DNA of 64,000 nt, taken from contig NZ_CP025581.1 of NCBI RefSeq assembly GCF_002865585.1, positions 1,674,001-1,738,000 on the forward strand, read 5' to 3'. The notes beneath the pieces were generated by a model. It worked only from the letters and a program-made list of their open reading frames with translations. It ran no database searches and was not told where the DNA came from. Positions within the stretch are counted from its first letter, which is position 1. Every line of letters begins with the position of its first letter. This document shows, in pieces, positions 2,447-63,096 of this stretch. The translations under genes and the position numbers were made by a program. The stretch comes from Nocardioides houyundeii (GTDB taxonomy: Bacteria > Actinomycetota > Actinomycetes > Propionibacteriales > Nocardioidaceae).

Positions 2447-3904
2447 TCATTCGAGCAGGTCAGAAAGGTCCTCGGTCTGCCCGACGAGATAGTCGACCTC
2501 AGAAGAGAGCCGGACGCGGGATGGGTCCCATGCGCCTCGCCGACGGGCCGGGAGGACGCTCACGCGAACGCCGAGCGCAGCCATGTGCTTGCGGCGCTCC
2601 CCGACCGCCCACCCGTCCCACGCGGCGCCGTAAGGGGTGCGGGTGCGCCGGGTGGTGACGCGGTCCTCGGAGGCGCCTAGGCGCTCGCGCTCGGCTGTTA
2701 GCTCGGAGATCCGCTCGAAGAGCGCCGGGAGGTCGCCGGTCGCGGTATGGGCGATCTCGGCTGTCGCCACGGCGAGCGCGGTCTCAACCTCGGCGAGGGC
2801 TTCGGAGACGGAGACCTCGACGACGCGCTCGACGATCTCTACGCCAGAGAAAGCGGTGAGGAACAGGCGCTCGGCCTCGGCGTCGACCTCGGCCGCGTCG
2901 ACGAGGACGTGAGAGCCCTCGGAGATCCCTCGACAGCCGTAAAAGGCCCGGCCTCGACGGGACCGACGGATGAGGGCCTCTCCGCATGGGCAGAAGGCGA
3001 GGCCGTGAAGCAACGGACGGGGGGCGGTGAGCCCTTCGCGCGTCGCGGACGAGCGAGCCTCGTCGAGGGCCTGGGGGGTGACAAGCGCCCGGACTGCCTC
3101 GGCGGTCTCGTCGTCAACGAGGGGCTCCCAAGCGCGGACGGGCGCACCACCCTCGTCGTGCACCGGACGCCGCTGGCGGGTGGGGTGGCCCTTCTGATCG
3201 CGGACGGACTCGGTCAGGTAGCCGGAGACGTGAAGAGCCCGCGCGATGTTAAGCACGCTTGCAGGCTTCCAGTCGCGGCCCGTCGCGGTCGGGATGCCCT
3301 CGGTGGTGAGGTTACGCGCGAGGCGATTGACCGGGACGCCGTCGAGGAGGTCGGCGAAGATCCGCCGGATGACGTCGGCCTCGGCCTCGTCGACGCGGAG
3401 CACCTTCCCGACGCCGTCCGGGGCGGGCCCGGGGCGGTAGCCGTAGGGGCGGGGGCCGCCTCCCCAGCGCCGAAGGCCACGCAGGTACGCCTTCGTCGCC
3501 TTCGCGCGCTCGCCGGTTGTCGCCGCCTCTAGTCCGGCGAAGACTTGAGTGATCTGGACGATCGCGAGACCCATCGGTGAGGTCGTGTCGTAGGGCTCGG
3601 TCGCGGAGACGATCCCGACGCCTTCGTCGAGGAGCAGGCTCATATCCACGACGTTTCGCGCGATCCGGTCGAGGCGCCAGCACAGGATCGCATCGGCGCG
3701 GCTGGAGAGGACGGCCTCGCGCGCCTCGGTGAGTCCCGGGCGGTTCAGTCGAGCCTTCGTAGCGCTCACGCTCTCGTCGGCGGCGATCCCGATGAGGTCC
3801 CAGCCGCGGGCTTCGGCAGTCCTCGTGATGATGTCGCGTTGTTTCTCGATCGACGTTGAGTCCTCGCTCGCGCGGGACAGGCGGGCGTAGCCGTAGACCC
3901 TCAT
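2447..3904 (-). CDS. Large serine recombinase (site-specific integrase)
   Basis: A 485-residue large serine recombinase. The N-terminal resolvase domain starts MRVYGYARLS, with the catalytic serine at residue 10, and contains the active-site segment RLDRIARN near residue 100. A recombinase domain follows (about 150-260), then a zinc-ribbon-like part with CPCG and YGC near 330-350, and a helical C-terminal region (about 390-440) typical of the coiled-coil arm that controls integration versus excision. The ATG at 3904 is preceded by GAGGAG at good spacing. The gene lies at the element edge, reading inward, as expected for the enzyme that integrated it into the neighbouring thiamine-binding gene. 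It would join attP and attB and, with a directionality factor, reverse this. Confidence 0.92.
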   Translation of the reverse strand: MRVYGYARLSRASEDSTSIEKQRDIITRTAEARGWDLIGIAADESVSATKARLNRPGLTEAREAVLSSRADAILCWRLDRIARNVVDMSLLLDEGVGIVSATEPYDTTSPMGLAIVQITQVFAGLEAATTGERAKATKAYLRGLRRWGGGPRPYGYRPGPAPDGVGKVLRVDEAEADVIRRIFADLLDGVPVNRLARNLTTEGIPTATGRDWKPASVLNIARALHVSGYLTESVRDQKGHPTRQRRPVHDEGGAPVRAWEPLVDDETAEAVRALVTPQALDEARSSATREGLTAPRPLLHGLAFCPCGEALIRRSRRGRAFYGCRGISEGSHVLVDAAEVDAEAERLFLTAFSGVEIVERVVEVSVSEALAEVETALAVATAEIAHTATGDLPALFERISELTAERERLGASEDRVTTRRTRTPYGAAWDGWAVGERRKHMAALGVRVSVLPARRRGAWDPSRVRLSSEVDYLVGQTEDLSDLLE

Positions 3905-3974
3905 GCTGTGTTCTCCTCGTGTCATCGTTGGACGCGAGGTAGGAGTCCGCCAGTGATCCGGAACGTGCTCAGTC

Positions 3975-4154
3975 ATGTACCCCGCTAACCATGAAGGGGA
4001 GTGGGACGAGGTGATGGCCGTGGTCAAGCAGGCGGTGTTCAAGGTCGCCGAGACCTCGCCGCGGGTCGGGCTGGTGCTCAAGGCCGACCTGCGTGCCGGC
4101 CACGACGCCGGCGAGATGGAGGCGAAGGTGCGTCGCCTGGAGCAGCATCTGTGA
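3975..4154 (+). pseudogene. 3' remnant of MTH1187-family thiamine-binding protein
   Basis: From about 3993 the frame reads EGEWDEVMAVVKQAV, the conserved second half of the small MTH1187/YqgV thiamine-binding proteins, and ends at 4154 with a normal C-terminus (about 54 of the usual 95-100 residues). The expected N-terminal half is missing; upstream sequence belongs to the element. An ATG at 3975 is in frame and could give a 59-residue hybrid protein, but it lacks the N-terminal strand needed for the fold. The intact half probably lies at the other end of the element. The next gene, yjbQ, is also linked to thiamine, so the site had been a thiamine-related pair. Confidence 0.8.
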
Positions 4155-4190: not shown

Positions 4191-4595
4191 ATGGAGACGA
4201 CCACCATCGAGTACCTGACCGGGGACTCCGAGCGCGTGCTCGACATCACCGACGACTGCGCGGCGTTCGTGGCAGGGCGCGGGGACGGGCTGCTGCACCT
4301 CTTCGTGCCGCACGCCACCGCCGGGCTGGCCATCCTGGAGACCGGCGCGGGGTCCGACGCCGACCTGCTCTCCGCCCTGCGCGAGCTGCTGCCCGCCGAC
4401 GACAGGTGGCGGCACCGGCACGGCAGCCCCGGGCACGGCCGATCGCACGTGATGCCGGCCCTGGTCCCGCCGTACGCCTCCGTCCCGGTCGCCGCCGGAC
4501 GACTGGCGCTGGGGACCTGGCAGAGCCTCTGTCTGGTCGACCTCAACGTGGACAACCCCCGGCGGCAGGTCCGGATGGACTTCCTCGCCGGATGA
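4191..4595 (+). CDS. yjbQ: YjbQ family (UPF0047) protein
   Basis: A 134-residue member of the YjbQ/UPF0047 family, some members of which have thiamine phosphate synthase activity in vitro. Conserved features are HATAGLAILETG (about 38-49) and the C-terminal core GRLALGTWQSLCLVDLN (about 103-119), with conserved histidines at about 78-88. Full length for the family. The ATG at 4191 is chosen over an in-frame GTG at 4182 because the GTG overlaps a -10 box. It follows the broken thiamine-binding gene, which may once have been co-transcribed with it; the family function in vivo is not settled. Confidence 0.88.
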   Translation: METTTIEYLTGDSERVLDITDDCAAFVAGRGDGLLHLFVPHATAGLAILETGAGSDADLLSALRELLPADDRWRHRHGSPGHGRSHVMPALVPPYASVPVAAGRLALGTWQSLCLVDLNVDNPRRQVRMDFLAG

Positions 4596-4599
4596 TGTG

Positions 4600-4623
4600 T
4601 CGAACACCTGTTCGACGTAGGAT
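4600..4623 (+). promoter_or_regulatory. LexA/SOS box and -10 of the 123-residue gene
   Basis: Bases 4600-4615 read TCGAAC-ACCT-GTTCGA, a perfect match to the actinobacterial LexA box TCGAAC-N4-GTTCGA. Two bases on, TAGGAT (4618-4623) is a -10 box six bases before the ATG at 4630. The box lies between the -35 and -10 positions, the ideal place for LexA repression. Confidence 0.9.
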
Positions 4624-4629
4624 CGGCGC

Positions 4630-5001
4630 ATGCCCACCCACGTCGCGCCGCCCGGCTGGCCCTCCGCGGTCCGCCCGCCGGACGCGCCCGACTGGGAGCG
4701 CACGGCCGTCAACTGGCTCTTCGACATCAGCCCGCCGGAGTACCGCGGACACCAGACGCTGCGACGCCACGTGGTGGTGCTGGCGCGCTTCGCGGTGCTG
4801 CACGTCGAGGCGCAGCAGGCCGCGTGCCGACGCGGTCTCAGCCAGGCGCGCGCCGACCTGCGCGACGTGACCGACCTGGACACCGTCGAGGCGGCGGTGG
4901 CCACGTGGCAGGCCGAGCAGGCCCGCCTGCTCGCCGTACGACGCGAGGTCGGGCTGGTCGAGGAGGCGCTGCGAGGCCGGCGCTTCGTGGCCCGGCTGTA
5001 G
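4630..5001 (+). CDS. Hypothetical protein with SOS-type promoter
   Basis: A 123-residue soluble protein of unknown function. The N-terminus is Pro-rich (first 20 residues); the rest is predicted helical with a DWERTAVNWLFD segment (about 21-32), an Arg/His patch at 43-47 and a long amphipathic helix from about residue 80 to the end. It has no signal peptide, membrane segment, nuclease motif or metal-binding pattern that I can see. Transcription should be induced by DNA damage, because a perfect LexA box precedes it, and the transcript should be leaderless. The spacing and intact frame argue for a functional gene. A role in repair, mutagenesis or division arrest is only an inference from the operator. 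Confidence 0.8.
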   Translation: MPTHVAPPGWPSAVRPPDAPDWERTAVNWLFDISPPEYRGHQTLRRHVVVLARFAVLHVEAQQAACRRGLSQARADLRDVTDLDTVEAAVATWQAEQARLLAVRREVGLVEEALRGRRFVARL

Positions 5002-5012: not shown

Positions 5013-5483
5013 ATGCAGCCCGCCAGCGATGCGCCCAGCCACCCGCCCGGCGTACGCCGGTTCGCGGGAGTGATCCTGGTCGACCCACGCGGCTGGCTGC
5101 TGCTGCAGGAACGGGACGAGCACCCGGTGATCGACCCGGACCGGTGGGGCCTGCCCGGCGGCCACGTTGAGCCCGGCGAGACCTTCGCCCAGGCGGCGCA
5201 CCGCGAGCTGGCCGAGGAGACCGGGGTCGAGGTCGCCGCCGGTGGCCTGGCTTTCTGGGGGGAGTTCCGGGTCGACCACCGTCACGCCTACGGCACCTTC
5301 GACCAGATGCAGGTCTTCGTCGCCCCGACGCTGCTGAAGGATGAGGAGATCGACTGCCGGGAGGGTCGCCGGATCGTCTTCGTCGAGCCCCGGCACGCGC
5401 TGGGCCTGGAGCTCACCTCGGCGGCGTCGGTGATCGTGCCGGCCTTCCTCTCCTCACCGGAGTACGCCAGCATGGCCCCATGA
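5013..5483 (+). CDS. NUDIX hydrolase
   Basis: A 156-residue NUDIX protein that would hydrolyse a nucleoside diphosphate linked to another moiety. The full Nudix box GX5EX7REXXEEXG is present at about residues 49-71 (GGHVEPGETF, then RELAEETG), with the Mg-binding glutamates intact. The substrate cannot be told from sequence; sanitising oxidised nucleotides or trimming a nucleotide sugar are both common. The stop overlaps the start of the next gene (ATGA), so the two are probably translated together. Confidence 0.9.
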   Translation: MQPASDAPSHPPGVRRFAGVILVDPRGWLLLQERDEHPVIDPDRWGLPGGHVEPGETFAQAAHRELAEETGVEVAAGGLAFWGEFRVDHRHAYGTFDQMQVFVAPTLLKDEEIDCREGRRIVFVEPRHALGLELTSAASVIVPAFLSSPEYASMAP

Positions 5484-7213: not shown

Positions 7214-9084
7214 ATGGGCCACCTGGACTCGATCACCTCCCCGCGTGACCTCCGTGCTCTCTCCACCGAGCAGCTCTCCGAGCTGGCCGAGGAGATCCGC
7301 GACGTGCTGATCAGCACGACCGCGCGCACCGGAGGCCACCTGGGTCCGAACCTGGGCGTCGTCGAGCTCACGCTGGCCATCCACCGGGTCTTCGAGTCCC
7401 CCCATGACCGGGTCGTCTTCGACACCGGCCACCAGACCTACGTGCACAAGCTGCTCACCGGGCGCGCGGACCGCTTCTCCACCCTGCGTCAGGAGGGCGG
7501 GCTGAGCGGCTACCCCAGCCGGGCCGAGTCCGAGCACGACATCGTGGAGAACTCCCACGCCTCCACCTCGCTCTCCTACGCCGACGGCCTGGCCAAGGCG
7601 TACGCGATCCGCGGCGAGGACCGTCACGTGGTGGCGGTCATCGGCGACGGCGCGCTGACCGGCGGCATGGCCTGGGAGGCGCTGAACAACATCGCGATCG
7701 CCAAGGACTCGCGGCTCGTGATCGTGGTCAACGACAACGAGCGCTCCTACACCCCGACCATCGGGGGCTGGCGACCTCCCTGACTCGGCTGCGCACCAAC
7801 CCCCGCTACGAGCAGGTGCTCGACGTGGTGAAGAAGCGTCTCCAGGCCGTGCCCGGTGTCGGCGGCGCCGCCTACGACGCCCTGCACGCCATGAAGAAGG
7901 GCATGAAGGACGTCCTCGCCCCCCAGGGTCTCTTCGAGGACCTGGGCCTGAAGTACGTCGGCCCGGTCGACGGGCACGACGAGGCGGCGGTGGAGTCCGC
8001 GCTCACCCAGGCCAAGCGGTTCGGCGGCCCGGTGATCGTCCACGTGATGACGCGCAAGGGCGCCGGCTACGACCCCGCCGAGCGGCACGAGGCCGACCAG
8101 TTCCACGCTCCGGGGCCGTTCGACGTCCAGAACGGTGCCGAGAAGCCCAAGGGCAAGATCTGGACCGACCACTTCTCCGAGGCCATGGTCGAGCTGGGCG
8201 AGCGCCGCGAGGACGTGGTCGCGATGACGGCCGCCATGATGCACCCGGTGGGCCTGGACGCGTTCCAGGCACGCTGGCCCGGTCGGACCATCGACGTGGG
8301 CATCGCCGAGCAGCACGCCACGACCTCGGCCGCCGGTCTGGCGATGGGCGGTCTGCACCCCGTCTTCGCCGTCTACGCGACCTTCCTCAACCGTGCCTTC
8401 GACCAGGTGCTGATGGACGTGGCCCTGCACAGGTGCGGCGTCACCTTCGTGCTGGACCGCTCCGGCGTGACCGGTGACGACGGCGCCAGCCACAACGGCA
8501 TGTGGGACATGTCGATCCTCCAGGTCGTGCCGGGGCTGCGCCTGGCCGCGCCGCGAGACGTGACGCGGCTGCGCGAGCTGCTGGACGAGGCGGTGGAGGT
8601 CAGCGACGCCCCCACGGTGGTGCGCTTCCCCAAGGGCCCGCCGCCGGCCGACATCCCCACGCTCGCCAAGGCCGGGGGCGCCGACGTGCTCGTGCGCACG
8701 GGCGCCCGCGACGTCCTGCTCGTCGCGGTGGGCGCCATGGCCGAGGTCGCCGTCGAGGCTGCGGCGCGGCTGGAGGCCGAGGGCGTAGGAGTCACCGTCG
8801 TGGACCCGCGCTGGGTCAAGCCGGTCGACCCCGCCATCGTGGAGCTCGCGCGAGAGCACCGTCTGGTGGTCAGCGTGGAGGACAACGGGCGAGTGGGGGG
8901 CGTGGGCGCCACCCTGCTGCAGACCCTCAACGACGCGGGCGTGGAGACCCCGTTCCAGCTGCACGCGATCCCGCAGGAGTTCCTCGACCACGCCAAGCGC
9001 GCGGTCATCCTGAGCCGGATCGGGCTGGACTCCCAGACGATCGCCCGCCGCATCCTCGAGCAGGTCTCGGCCCTGGAGCCCTAA
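7214..9084 (+). pseudogene. dxs: dxs, 1-deoxy-D-xylulose-5-phosphate synthase, frameshifted
   Basis: Encodes the thiamine-diphosphate enzyme that joins pyruvate and glyceraldehyde 3-phosphate in the first step of the MEP isoprenoid pathway. The first frame (7214-7783) carries [14 protein letters not shown] and the ThDP motif [16 protein letters not shown], then ends prematurely. The second frame continues the protein without loss ([12 protein letters not shown] onward, with [10 protein letters not shown] and the transketolase C-terminal domain) to 9084. Restoring one G to the five-G run at 7763-7767 gives one frame of about 623 residues, the normal length. The start has GGAGG at 7206. Since dxs is usually essential, a sequencing error is the likeliest cause; a true mutation would need a second copy elsewhere. 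Confidence 0.9.
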
Positions 9085-62492: not shown

Positions 62493-63096
62493 TGAGCTCG
62501 GAGGAGACGTTGGCGCGTGCCTGGTGCTCCCACCGCTCACGCGCGTGCCGGGTCGCGTAGATCCACTCGCCTGACAGCAGTTCCTCGAGCACGGCGATCC
62601 GACCCACGGCGAACTCGTGGTCGCCGTACCGGGCGTACTCGCGGCGAACCCCCGCGGCGTACTCGGCGTAGCGCTGCGGGGTCGCGGCCAGGATGGCCAG
62701 GTCCGCGTCCGAGAGCGCCTGACCGGCCGCGTCCCCGGGCTCGGGACGGTGCCCGGCGGTGAGCCGGACCAGCCTCGCCACCTCGGCGGCGTCCGCGTCG
62801 GTGCCCCCGAGCGCCTCCGCTGCCCACTGGGCCGACCGCTCCTCGGCAGCTGACGTGCCGTCGTACACCGCGTCGTGGAACCACGCCGCCAGCAGCACCT
62901 CGGTCGGCTCGAACCGATGGTCGACCGAGAGCTCTGCCAGCCGCTCGAACACCTCCACCAGGTGCCGTACGTCGTGGTACCCCCGGTCCGGGGAGCGGTA
63001 GGCCGCCTCGAGGTCGTGTCGCAGCTCGTCGTGATCGGGCAGGGGCCACCAGCGAGTCAGGTCCGTCAGGTGCCCGGGGGACTCGCTAGATTCCAT
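62437..63096 (-). CDS. HD-domain metal-dependent phosphohydrolase-like protein
   Basis: A 219-residue HD-type protein: GYHDVRHLVEVF (about 39-50) gives the first His, WFHDAVYDG (about 70-78) the HD pair, and the later AGHRPEP and LSDADLAILA segments the remaining ligands. Close relatives are annotated as predicted metal-dependent HD phosphohydrolases without known substrate. Start ATG at 63096 lies three bases from the divergent histidine-kinase start; no -10 box or ribosome binding site is apparent, so the true start may differ slightly. Confidence 0.85.
   Translation of the reverse strand: MESSESPGHLTDLTRWWPLPDHDELRHDLEAAYRSPDRGYHDVRHLVEVFERLAELSVDHRFEPTEVLLAAWFHDAVYDGTSAAEERSAQWAAEALGGTDADAAEVARLVRLTAGHRPEPGDAAGQALSDADLAILAATPQRYAEYAAGVRREYARYGDHEFAVGRIAVLEELLSGEWIYATRHARERWEHQARANVSSELITLRTMAWDVAGLPDADA
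63087..63092 (+). promoter_or_regulatory. -10 box of the histidine kinase gene
   Basis: TAGATT seven bases before the GTG at 63100, within the first codons of the divergent HD-domain gene. Confidence 0.5.

Follow-up and report, generated by a model that had tools for sequence, protein, structure and literature searches.

Results

A small gene beneath a perfect LexA box

The window, by which we mean the whole stretch of 64,000 nucleotides of the Nocardioides houyundeii genome that was analyzed, contains a 123-codon gene whose start lies just past a perfect LexA palindrome. The features on which the argument turns are these:

4191..4595, plus strand: upstream neighbor, a UPF0047/YjbQ-type protein gene (from a family scan), stopping 4 bases short of the box
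4600..4615, palindromic, no strand assigned: LexA (SOS) box TCGAACACCTGTTCGA, a perfect palindrome, exactly TCGAAC-N4-GTTCGA
4618..4623, plus strand: -10-like element TAGGAT, 6 bases (CGGCGC) before the ATG at 4630
4630..5001, plus strand: gene for a 123-aa protein of an unnamed actinomycete family, a predicted helical hairpin matching no family model over cut-off
5013..5483, plus strand: downstream neighbor, a NUDIX hydrolase gene, beginning 11 bases past the 123-codon gene
7214..9084, plus strand: putative dxs region

Read 5' to 3', TCGAACACCTGTTCGA (4600-4615) begins 4 bases past the stop codon of the yjbQ-type gene, which ends at 4595, and is followed by CG, TAGGAT (4618-4623), CGGCGC and the ATG at 4630, with 14 bases between box and gene and the LexA palindrome overlapping the promoter. 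The initial annotation had placed a perfect LexA box between the -35 and -10 positions of a leaderless promoter: the match to TCGAAC-N4-GTTCGA is indeed exact and the box fills the spacer before TAGGAT, but no clear -35 hexamer was seen upstream of the gene. The spacing of the -10-like element (4618-4623) and the ATG (4630) leads us to expect a leaderless start, from a promoter that the layout of the sequence predicts to have the operator as its spacer. The NUDIX hydrolase gene could be co-transcribed with the 123-codon gene.

This is the sole perfect LexA match in the window, where sites with up to two mismatches number seven against a mean of 2.06 in shuffled sequence. A LexA-like site with one mismatch at 62909-62924 falls within a minus-strand coding sequence and was set aside as probably due to chance.

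The flanks of the locus have peculiarities of their own. The putative dxs at 7214-9084 is split over two open frames (7214-7783 and 7816-9084), whereas its counterpart in relatives is a single frame, and it therefore carries a frame break, whether by mutation or by sequencing error. At 3975-4154 roughly the last 55 codons are left of a small conserved gene whose intact version, of about 100 codons, is found in Nocardioides gilvus (L082); adjoining it, an open reading frame on the minus strand (approximately 2447-3904, with its start near 3904) reads as a large serine recombinase. It seems from this arrangement that the small gene, which lies 0.45 kb upstream of the LexA box, was interrupted by an integrative element, and no exact repeat of 12 bases or longer linking 3900-4060 with the 17.8 kb upstream was found.

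An unnamed family of predicted helical proteins

The gene at 4630-5001 looks real, as its differences from a close orthologue (L017) are distributed 11/7/42 over the three codon positions and members of its family occur in 149 of 394 Actinomycetes genomes. Among the best 80 of 259 relatives, the nearest named ones belong to Nocardioides, with N. solisilvae at the top (91%). For the product, of about 14 kDa, a helical hairpin with a conserved N-terminal arm is predicted, and the family carries the motif PPGWP...VRPP...WLLD..P..YR...LRRH...LAR, with W10, P11, W29, D32 and R39 among the residues that are conserved; the AlphaFold model is a confident helical hairpin (pLDDT 90.8, pTM 0.81).

That the product resembles no recognizable repair family, as had first been remarked, agrees with the curated models: scans of the window protein gave no match over cut-off in Pfam and NCBIfam, and none at E 1 in PHROGs and PADLOC. 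When 81 family members were compared with the models, Pfam ThcOx was touched by five of them (best E 0.00077) and any one NCBIfam model by at most three, while the lone match to RecX (E 0.013) looks like chance. No enzyme-like signature was recognized in the 123-aa protein, and a Foldseek search against solved structures returned 225 matches with none at E 0.001 or better, and thus no clear relative. The family is one for which we found neither a name nor a function.

Other LexA boxes of the genome

Perfect LexA boxes number seven in the 3,840,802 bases of the complete genome, against an expectation of 0.07 derived from the base composition of the window. One of the other six precedes an operon encoding a DUF6504 protein, a SAV_6107-like protein, a DnaE-type polymerase, a methyltransferase and DinB; for the SAV_6107-like protein the NCBIfam models gave no match. 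The polymerase passed the cut-off of TIGR00594 but neither that of the replicative model nor that of the error-prone one, and for that reason we do not call it DnaE2. Another perfect box is flanked by an AlkB-type oxygenase gene and a divergent ABC-transporter open reading frame, and the remaining four (G000:C1:164033, 3025030, 3247937 and 3353027; loci L001, L005, L006 and L007) precede open reading frames resembling HNH proteins of the DUF222/13E12 type. Two of these four were scanned: one matched DUF222 at E 3e-5, just below cut-off, and the other had no match. Those at L001 and L007 are near-copies of one another.

Boxes with one mismatch stand before recA, lexA, ruvC and an open reading frame that reads as uvrA, the last being named from its sequence. 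The genome as a whole has 33 sites with at most one mismatch, compared with 10 for the reversed pattern, so that not every one-mismatch site can be real. LexA and RecA are both encoded, and matching boxes are found at canonical SOS genes, which together constitute the setting that we took to mark a LexA-controlled gene. Three further one-mismatch boxes are clustered about 1 kb from the lexA box (L231, 2536-2619 and 3625), flanked by a divergent gene for a LysM protein and by an open reading frame that looks, by eye, like an acetyltransferase.

Conservation of the box and its promoter position

The initial annotation had made its proposal of SOS induction turn on whether a LexA box also precedes orthologues of the gene, and close to home it does. 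From 259 relatives in the genome collection we took the best 80 as orthologous loci, labeled Nocardioides, Marmoricola, Pimelobacter or Nocardioidaceae apart from two metagenome-assembled genomes labeled Nostocoides (L049) and Actinomycetota (L086), and scored the box within 250 bases upstream of each. It is perfect in 63 and has one mismatch in 15, with two loci (L072 and L085) having none. Counting up to one mismatch, the box is thus present at 78 of the 80, as compared with 2 of 2549 control windows from the same loci. Of the 78 boxed loci among these best 80 of 259, 66 have a TANNNT past the box and then a start codon, ATG or GTG, in frame; in 56 of those 66 the gap from TANNNT to the start codon is exactly 6 bases.

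It might be argued that the palindrome is fortuitous, or serves some other factor, and that the gene is not SOS-regulated at all. Palindromes can of course arise by chance, but with 0.07 perfect sites expected per genome, and with the box kept at a fixed promoter position in 78 of the 80 loci (best 80 of 259), we regard this as scarcely credible and LexA control of the 123-codon gene as highly probable.

Across the class the picture is more divided. We fetched all 150 hits from the class-wide search, which span 31 GTDB families, overlap the 80 loci above and include the window's own gene. In family f1, to which that gene is counted, the box with at most one mismatch was found before 17 of 18 members; in f20 it was found before 28 of 33 (33 of 33 with up to two mismatches), in f36 before 4 of 6, and in f2 and f50 before the single member of each, whereas 4 of 2707 class-wide control windows contained it. 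None of the 91 hits in the 26 other families had a box with up to two mismatches (one hit was not scorable), nor did a second f2 genome (G045, L034) from outside the class-wide draw. The expectation that the box would accompany the gene in other actinobacteria was therefore borne out in five GTDB families and failed in 26, and because of these 26 families and the second f2 genome SOS control cannot be universal for the family. When upstream sequences of the box-less lineages were inspected by eye, nothing clearly resembling another damage promoter was seen.

Two of the families can be given a likely identity by eye. The f22 proteins are nearly equal to one of Streptomyces chartreusis, which makes this family look Streptomyces-like, and in f20 the L169 protein closely resembles one of Nonomuraea gerenzanensis, which suggests Streptosporangiaceae; 13 bases before the matched domain, the N. 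gerenzanensis copy has a box with one mismatch. In several f22 genomes (L205-L216) a GC-rich inverted repeat, GCGGCCCCGG...CCGGGGCCGC and similar, is visible by eye just upstream of the family gene.

Distribution and ancestry of the family

The 149 Actinomycetes genomes with the gene (150 hits) belong to 31 GTDB families. Genome counts here are lower bounds, because only the best first-look candidates were scored in each genome (11 per genome in the 394-genome draw and 18 per genome in a 246-genome draw from the phylum). The phylum draw gave 13 matched genomes, nine of them within the class; the other four were weak partial matches (E 0.0005 to 0.0045), which were not counted and are all that speaks for membership outside the class in that draw. 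A viral origin was also considered and set aside, as viral contigs and phage records held no relative. Five records of the plasmid collection contain distant relatives (two from Embleya, two from Nonomuraea and one from Streptomyces), although one of the Nonomuraea records is of chromosome size; one of the five relatives lies under a listed gene described as 'hypothetical protein', and the best upstream box has one mismatch in one record (Nonomuraea gerenzanensis), two in three and four in one.

The genomic neighborhood appears to be old. Among 80 distant members (L146-L225, of the 150 hits), a gene that we take to be dxs lies within 3 kb in 34, one that we take to be aconitase in 29, and both in 20; several show the order aconitase, family gene, dxs with almost no space between them. 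In the 80 Nocardioides-group loci (best 80 of 259), within about 5 kb, presumed dxs is present in 65 and presumed aconitase in 37. A protein tree, although built on 118 columns and weakly resolved with many open forks, needs 30 changes to fit the 31 GTDB family groups, the least possible, and as it follows the families the gene appears to be mostly vertically inherited. On the same weakly resolved tree a single origin of the box is not upheld, as seven changes of box state are needed when a box is defined by up to two mismatches. Vertical inheritance of the gene together with these seven changes suggests an old actinomycete gene that acquired LexA control in some lineages, or that lost its box in others.

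These data invite the reading that the product is a housekeeping protein tied to the old aconitase/dxs site, and that LexA control in some lineages has nothing to do with DNA repair. The proximity of dxs, aconitase or both in the distant members would fit this, as would the lack of a LexA box in most gene-bearing families and a protein tree that follows the families as under vertical inheritance. Descent alone, however, can preserve a neighborhood; the boxed lineages appear to give the gene a promoter of its own, with a box that is near-invariable in f1 and f20; and the gene is absent from 42 of 98 genomes of the genus, unlike what would be expected of a housekeeping gene. We therefore consider this reading unlikely.

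Co-occurrence with an SOS polymerase operon

A clue to what the protein might do comes from the gene's distribution within the genus, for which we used 98 genomes of completeness 98 or more, 56 with the gene and 42 without. DUF6504, whose gene opens the boxed polymerase operon, was found in 50 of the 56 and in 1 of the 42 (a weak match, in G500), for a Fisher value of 5.8e-20 that, like the other co-occurrence statistics here, is inflated by kinship among the 98 genomes. A probe for the C-terminal part of the DnaE-type polymerase was found in 43 of the 56 and in none of the 42, and all 43 also have DUF6504; the probe may undercount, as it missed seven genomes with both the gene and DUF6504. 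Seen from the other side, the gene is present in 50 of 51 DUF6504 genomes and in 43 of 43 genomes with the probe. In ten genomes inspected by eye the distance from DUF6504 to the probe is about 3 to 5 kb. The gene is not part of the operon, which lies 163 kb away in the N. houyundeii genome, yet both are preceded by perfect LexA boxes, that of the operon having been read in this genome.

Control genes behave differently: the AlkB-type SOS gene is in all 98 genomes, and the neighbors of the 123-codon gene are spread rather evenly, with YjbQ in 52 of 56 versus 32 of 42 (p 0.038), an SMP-30-like neighbor in 47 of 56 versus 30 of 42 (p 0.15) and NUDIX in 50 of 56 versus 33 of 42 (p 0.17). On a single-gene tree (AlkB-type) of 40 genomes of our own choosing, made up of 22 gene-bearing genomes out of the 56 (among them all six that lack DUF6504) and 18 of the 42 without, gene and DUF6504 agree in 33 of 40, and a neutral simulation of DUF6504 reached at least 33 in 2 of 5000 runs; the well supported independent changes on this tree are two, too few for a test. 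Of the six gene-bearing genomes without DUF6504, upstream regions were examined in four (L127, L129, L136 and L144), and all four retain a perfect box; the gene is therefore not strictly dependent on the polymerase operon.

The association loosens across the class, where, counting DUF6504 at E 0.01 or better, 105 of the 394 genomes have both, 44 the gene only, 70 DUF6504 only and 175 neither, so that the gene is in 105 of 175 DUF6504-bearing genomes. Of the 24 gene-bearing f22 genomes, 23 gave no match to DUF6504 at E 0.01 and the remaining one gave a match at 0.0019; in f29, 39 genomes have DUF6504 and one has the gene, leaving 38 with DUF6504 alone. A tally by family (26 with both, and 5, 6 and 13 in the other three cells) is rough, since genomes with no match are incompletely listed by family. 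We regard the co-occurrence in the genus as a good lead to a polymerase partner, not as proof. Among the three activities initially put forward for the gene, namely repair, mutagenesis and division control, it favors mutagenesis.

The same domain gives a hint of what the operon may be related to: a PF20114 (DUF6504) match was found in 1 of 14 control genomes, that of Caulobacter vibrioides, an organism with an ImuA-ImuB-DnaE2 operon, and DUF6504 may be a relative of ImuB-C.

Discussion

Both survival of DNA damage and the pace of mutation in bacteria are governed by the genes of SOS regulons, which have been studied for the most part in a few model species. An unnamed family present in 149 of 394 Actinomycetes genomes, with a near-perfect LexA box across the sampled members of whole families, is a concrete gap in this picture. 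In one open library we found no literature on this gene, papers on Nocardioides and LexA being judged by their titles and the starts of their abstracts, and none joining Nocardioides, LexA and the SOS response; on DUF6504/SAV_6107 the same library yielded only a HEPN survey. As dozens of Nocardioides species and some other actinomycetes have retained the LexA switch, the protein is very probably an overlooked part of the actinomycete DNA-damage response.

How might it work? In undamaged cells, LexA would sit on the box, filling the spacer up to the -10 element and blocking transcription, and upon damage RecA filaments would trigger LexA self-cleavage, allowing the small protein to be made, presumably concurrently with the polymerase operon. 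The predicted helical hairpin and the lack of a recognizable enzyme-like signature make it most likely that the product works by binding, as a non-enzymatic partner of another protein or of DNA. The best-supported candidate partner is the SOS polymerase operon, for which the protein could be an accessory factor or adaptor encoded elsewhere, helping or placing the DnaE-type or DinB polymerases. We would put the probability of this reading as a whole, a LexA-repressed and probably leaderless SOS gene whose product is an adaptor of the SOS polymerase operon, at roughly 0.4; the assignment of a polymerase accessory or adaptor role, drawn from genome comparison, is tentative. Doubtful, in our view, is the fuller account in which a helical-hairpin adaptor with its own LexA box is required by the DnaE-type and DinB polymerases for damage-induced mutagenesis, and descends from an ancestor between aconitase and dxs that came under LexA control in several lineages. 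If the protein does serve mutagenic polymerases, it would be a missing part of induced mutagenesis in Actinomycetes.

Two other roles within the SOS response have to be weighed. The protein could regulate RecA, LexA or recombination, much as DinI, RecX or PsiB do, acting early in the response to tune the filament, and its small size, predicted helical fold, lack of an enzymatic signature and perfect box, to which LexA would probably bind tightly because it is perfect, would all suit such a switch. On the other hand, there is no sequence match to such families, the single RecX match (E 0.013, among 81 members) being of the kind expected by chance, and as RecA and LexA are general this role would leave the co-occurrence with the polymerase operon unexplained; we find it improbable. 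The protein could also be an SOS division inhibitor or checkpoint factor with a role like those of the SidA, DidA, YneA or Rv2719c type. SOS division inhibitors are common, small and lineage-specific members of their regulons, which speaks in favor, but those known are mostly membrane or wall proteins whereas the model here is a helical hairpin, and the LysM protein gene at the box cluster near lexA already fits the role. In our judgment, old vertical inheritance near aconitase and dxs would moreover be unusual for such a factor, and a place in division control appears quite improbable. An adaptor of the SOS polymerase operon remains our preferred reading.

It is useful to set the protein beside what has been described elsewhere. 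Helical hairpins occur in the PDB in, for example, the arm of seryl-tRNA synthetase, the linker of topoisomerase I and SMC coiled coils, and the arrangement is common according to the tool's own note, although 0 of the 225 Foldseek matches reached E 0.001. Like DinI, RecX, PsiB, SidA, YneA and proteins of the Rv2719c type, the 123-aa protein is small, apparently SOS-controlled and without an enzyme signature, but it differs from them in matching no model and in having no LysM part.

A closer parallel might be sought in the ImuA-ImuB-DnaE2/DinB modules, since within the genus the gene tends to be found together with an operon that encodes DUF6504, a DnaE-type polymerase and DinB; it differs in lying outside the operon, and no sequence relation was found. 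Solo ImuB-C proteins are encoded beside DnaE2 or DinB in SOS operons and are described as mainly beta (PMC3765255), in contrast to the predicted helical hairpin of the 123-aa protein.

The likeness in regulation is greatest to the LexA regulon of Streptomyces venezuelae. The operator there is of the same type, many of the boxes being TCGAAC-N4-GTTC variants, and both the promoter position and the companions of the regulon (recA, lexA, ruvC, dnaE2-dinP and alkB) recall those of N. houyundeii (PMC9380542). A point of difference lies in Streptomyces itself, as the 24 Streptomyces-like members (f22) show no box. Table 1 of the study, which is a selection, includes three hypothetical proteins, vnz_21545, vnz_21550 and pvnz_37140, the last of which precedes a plasmid DNA polymerase IV gene (PMC9380542). 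A member of the family may be among these three.
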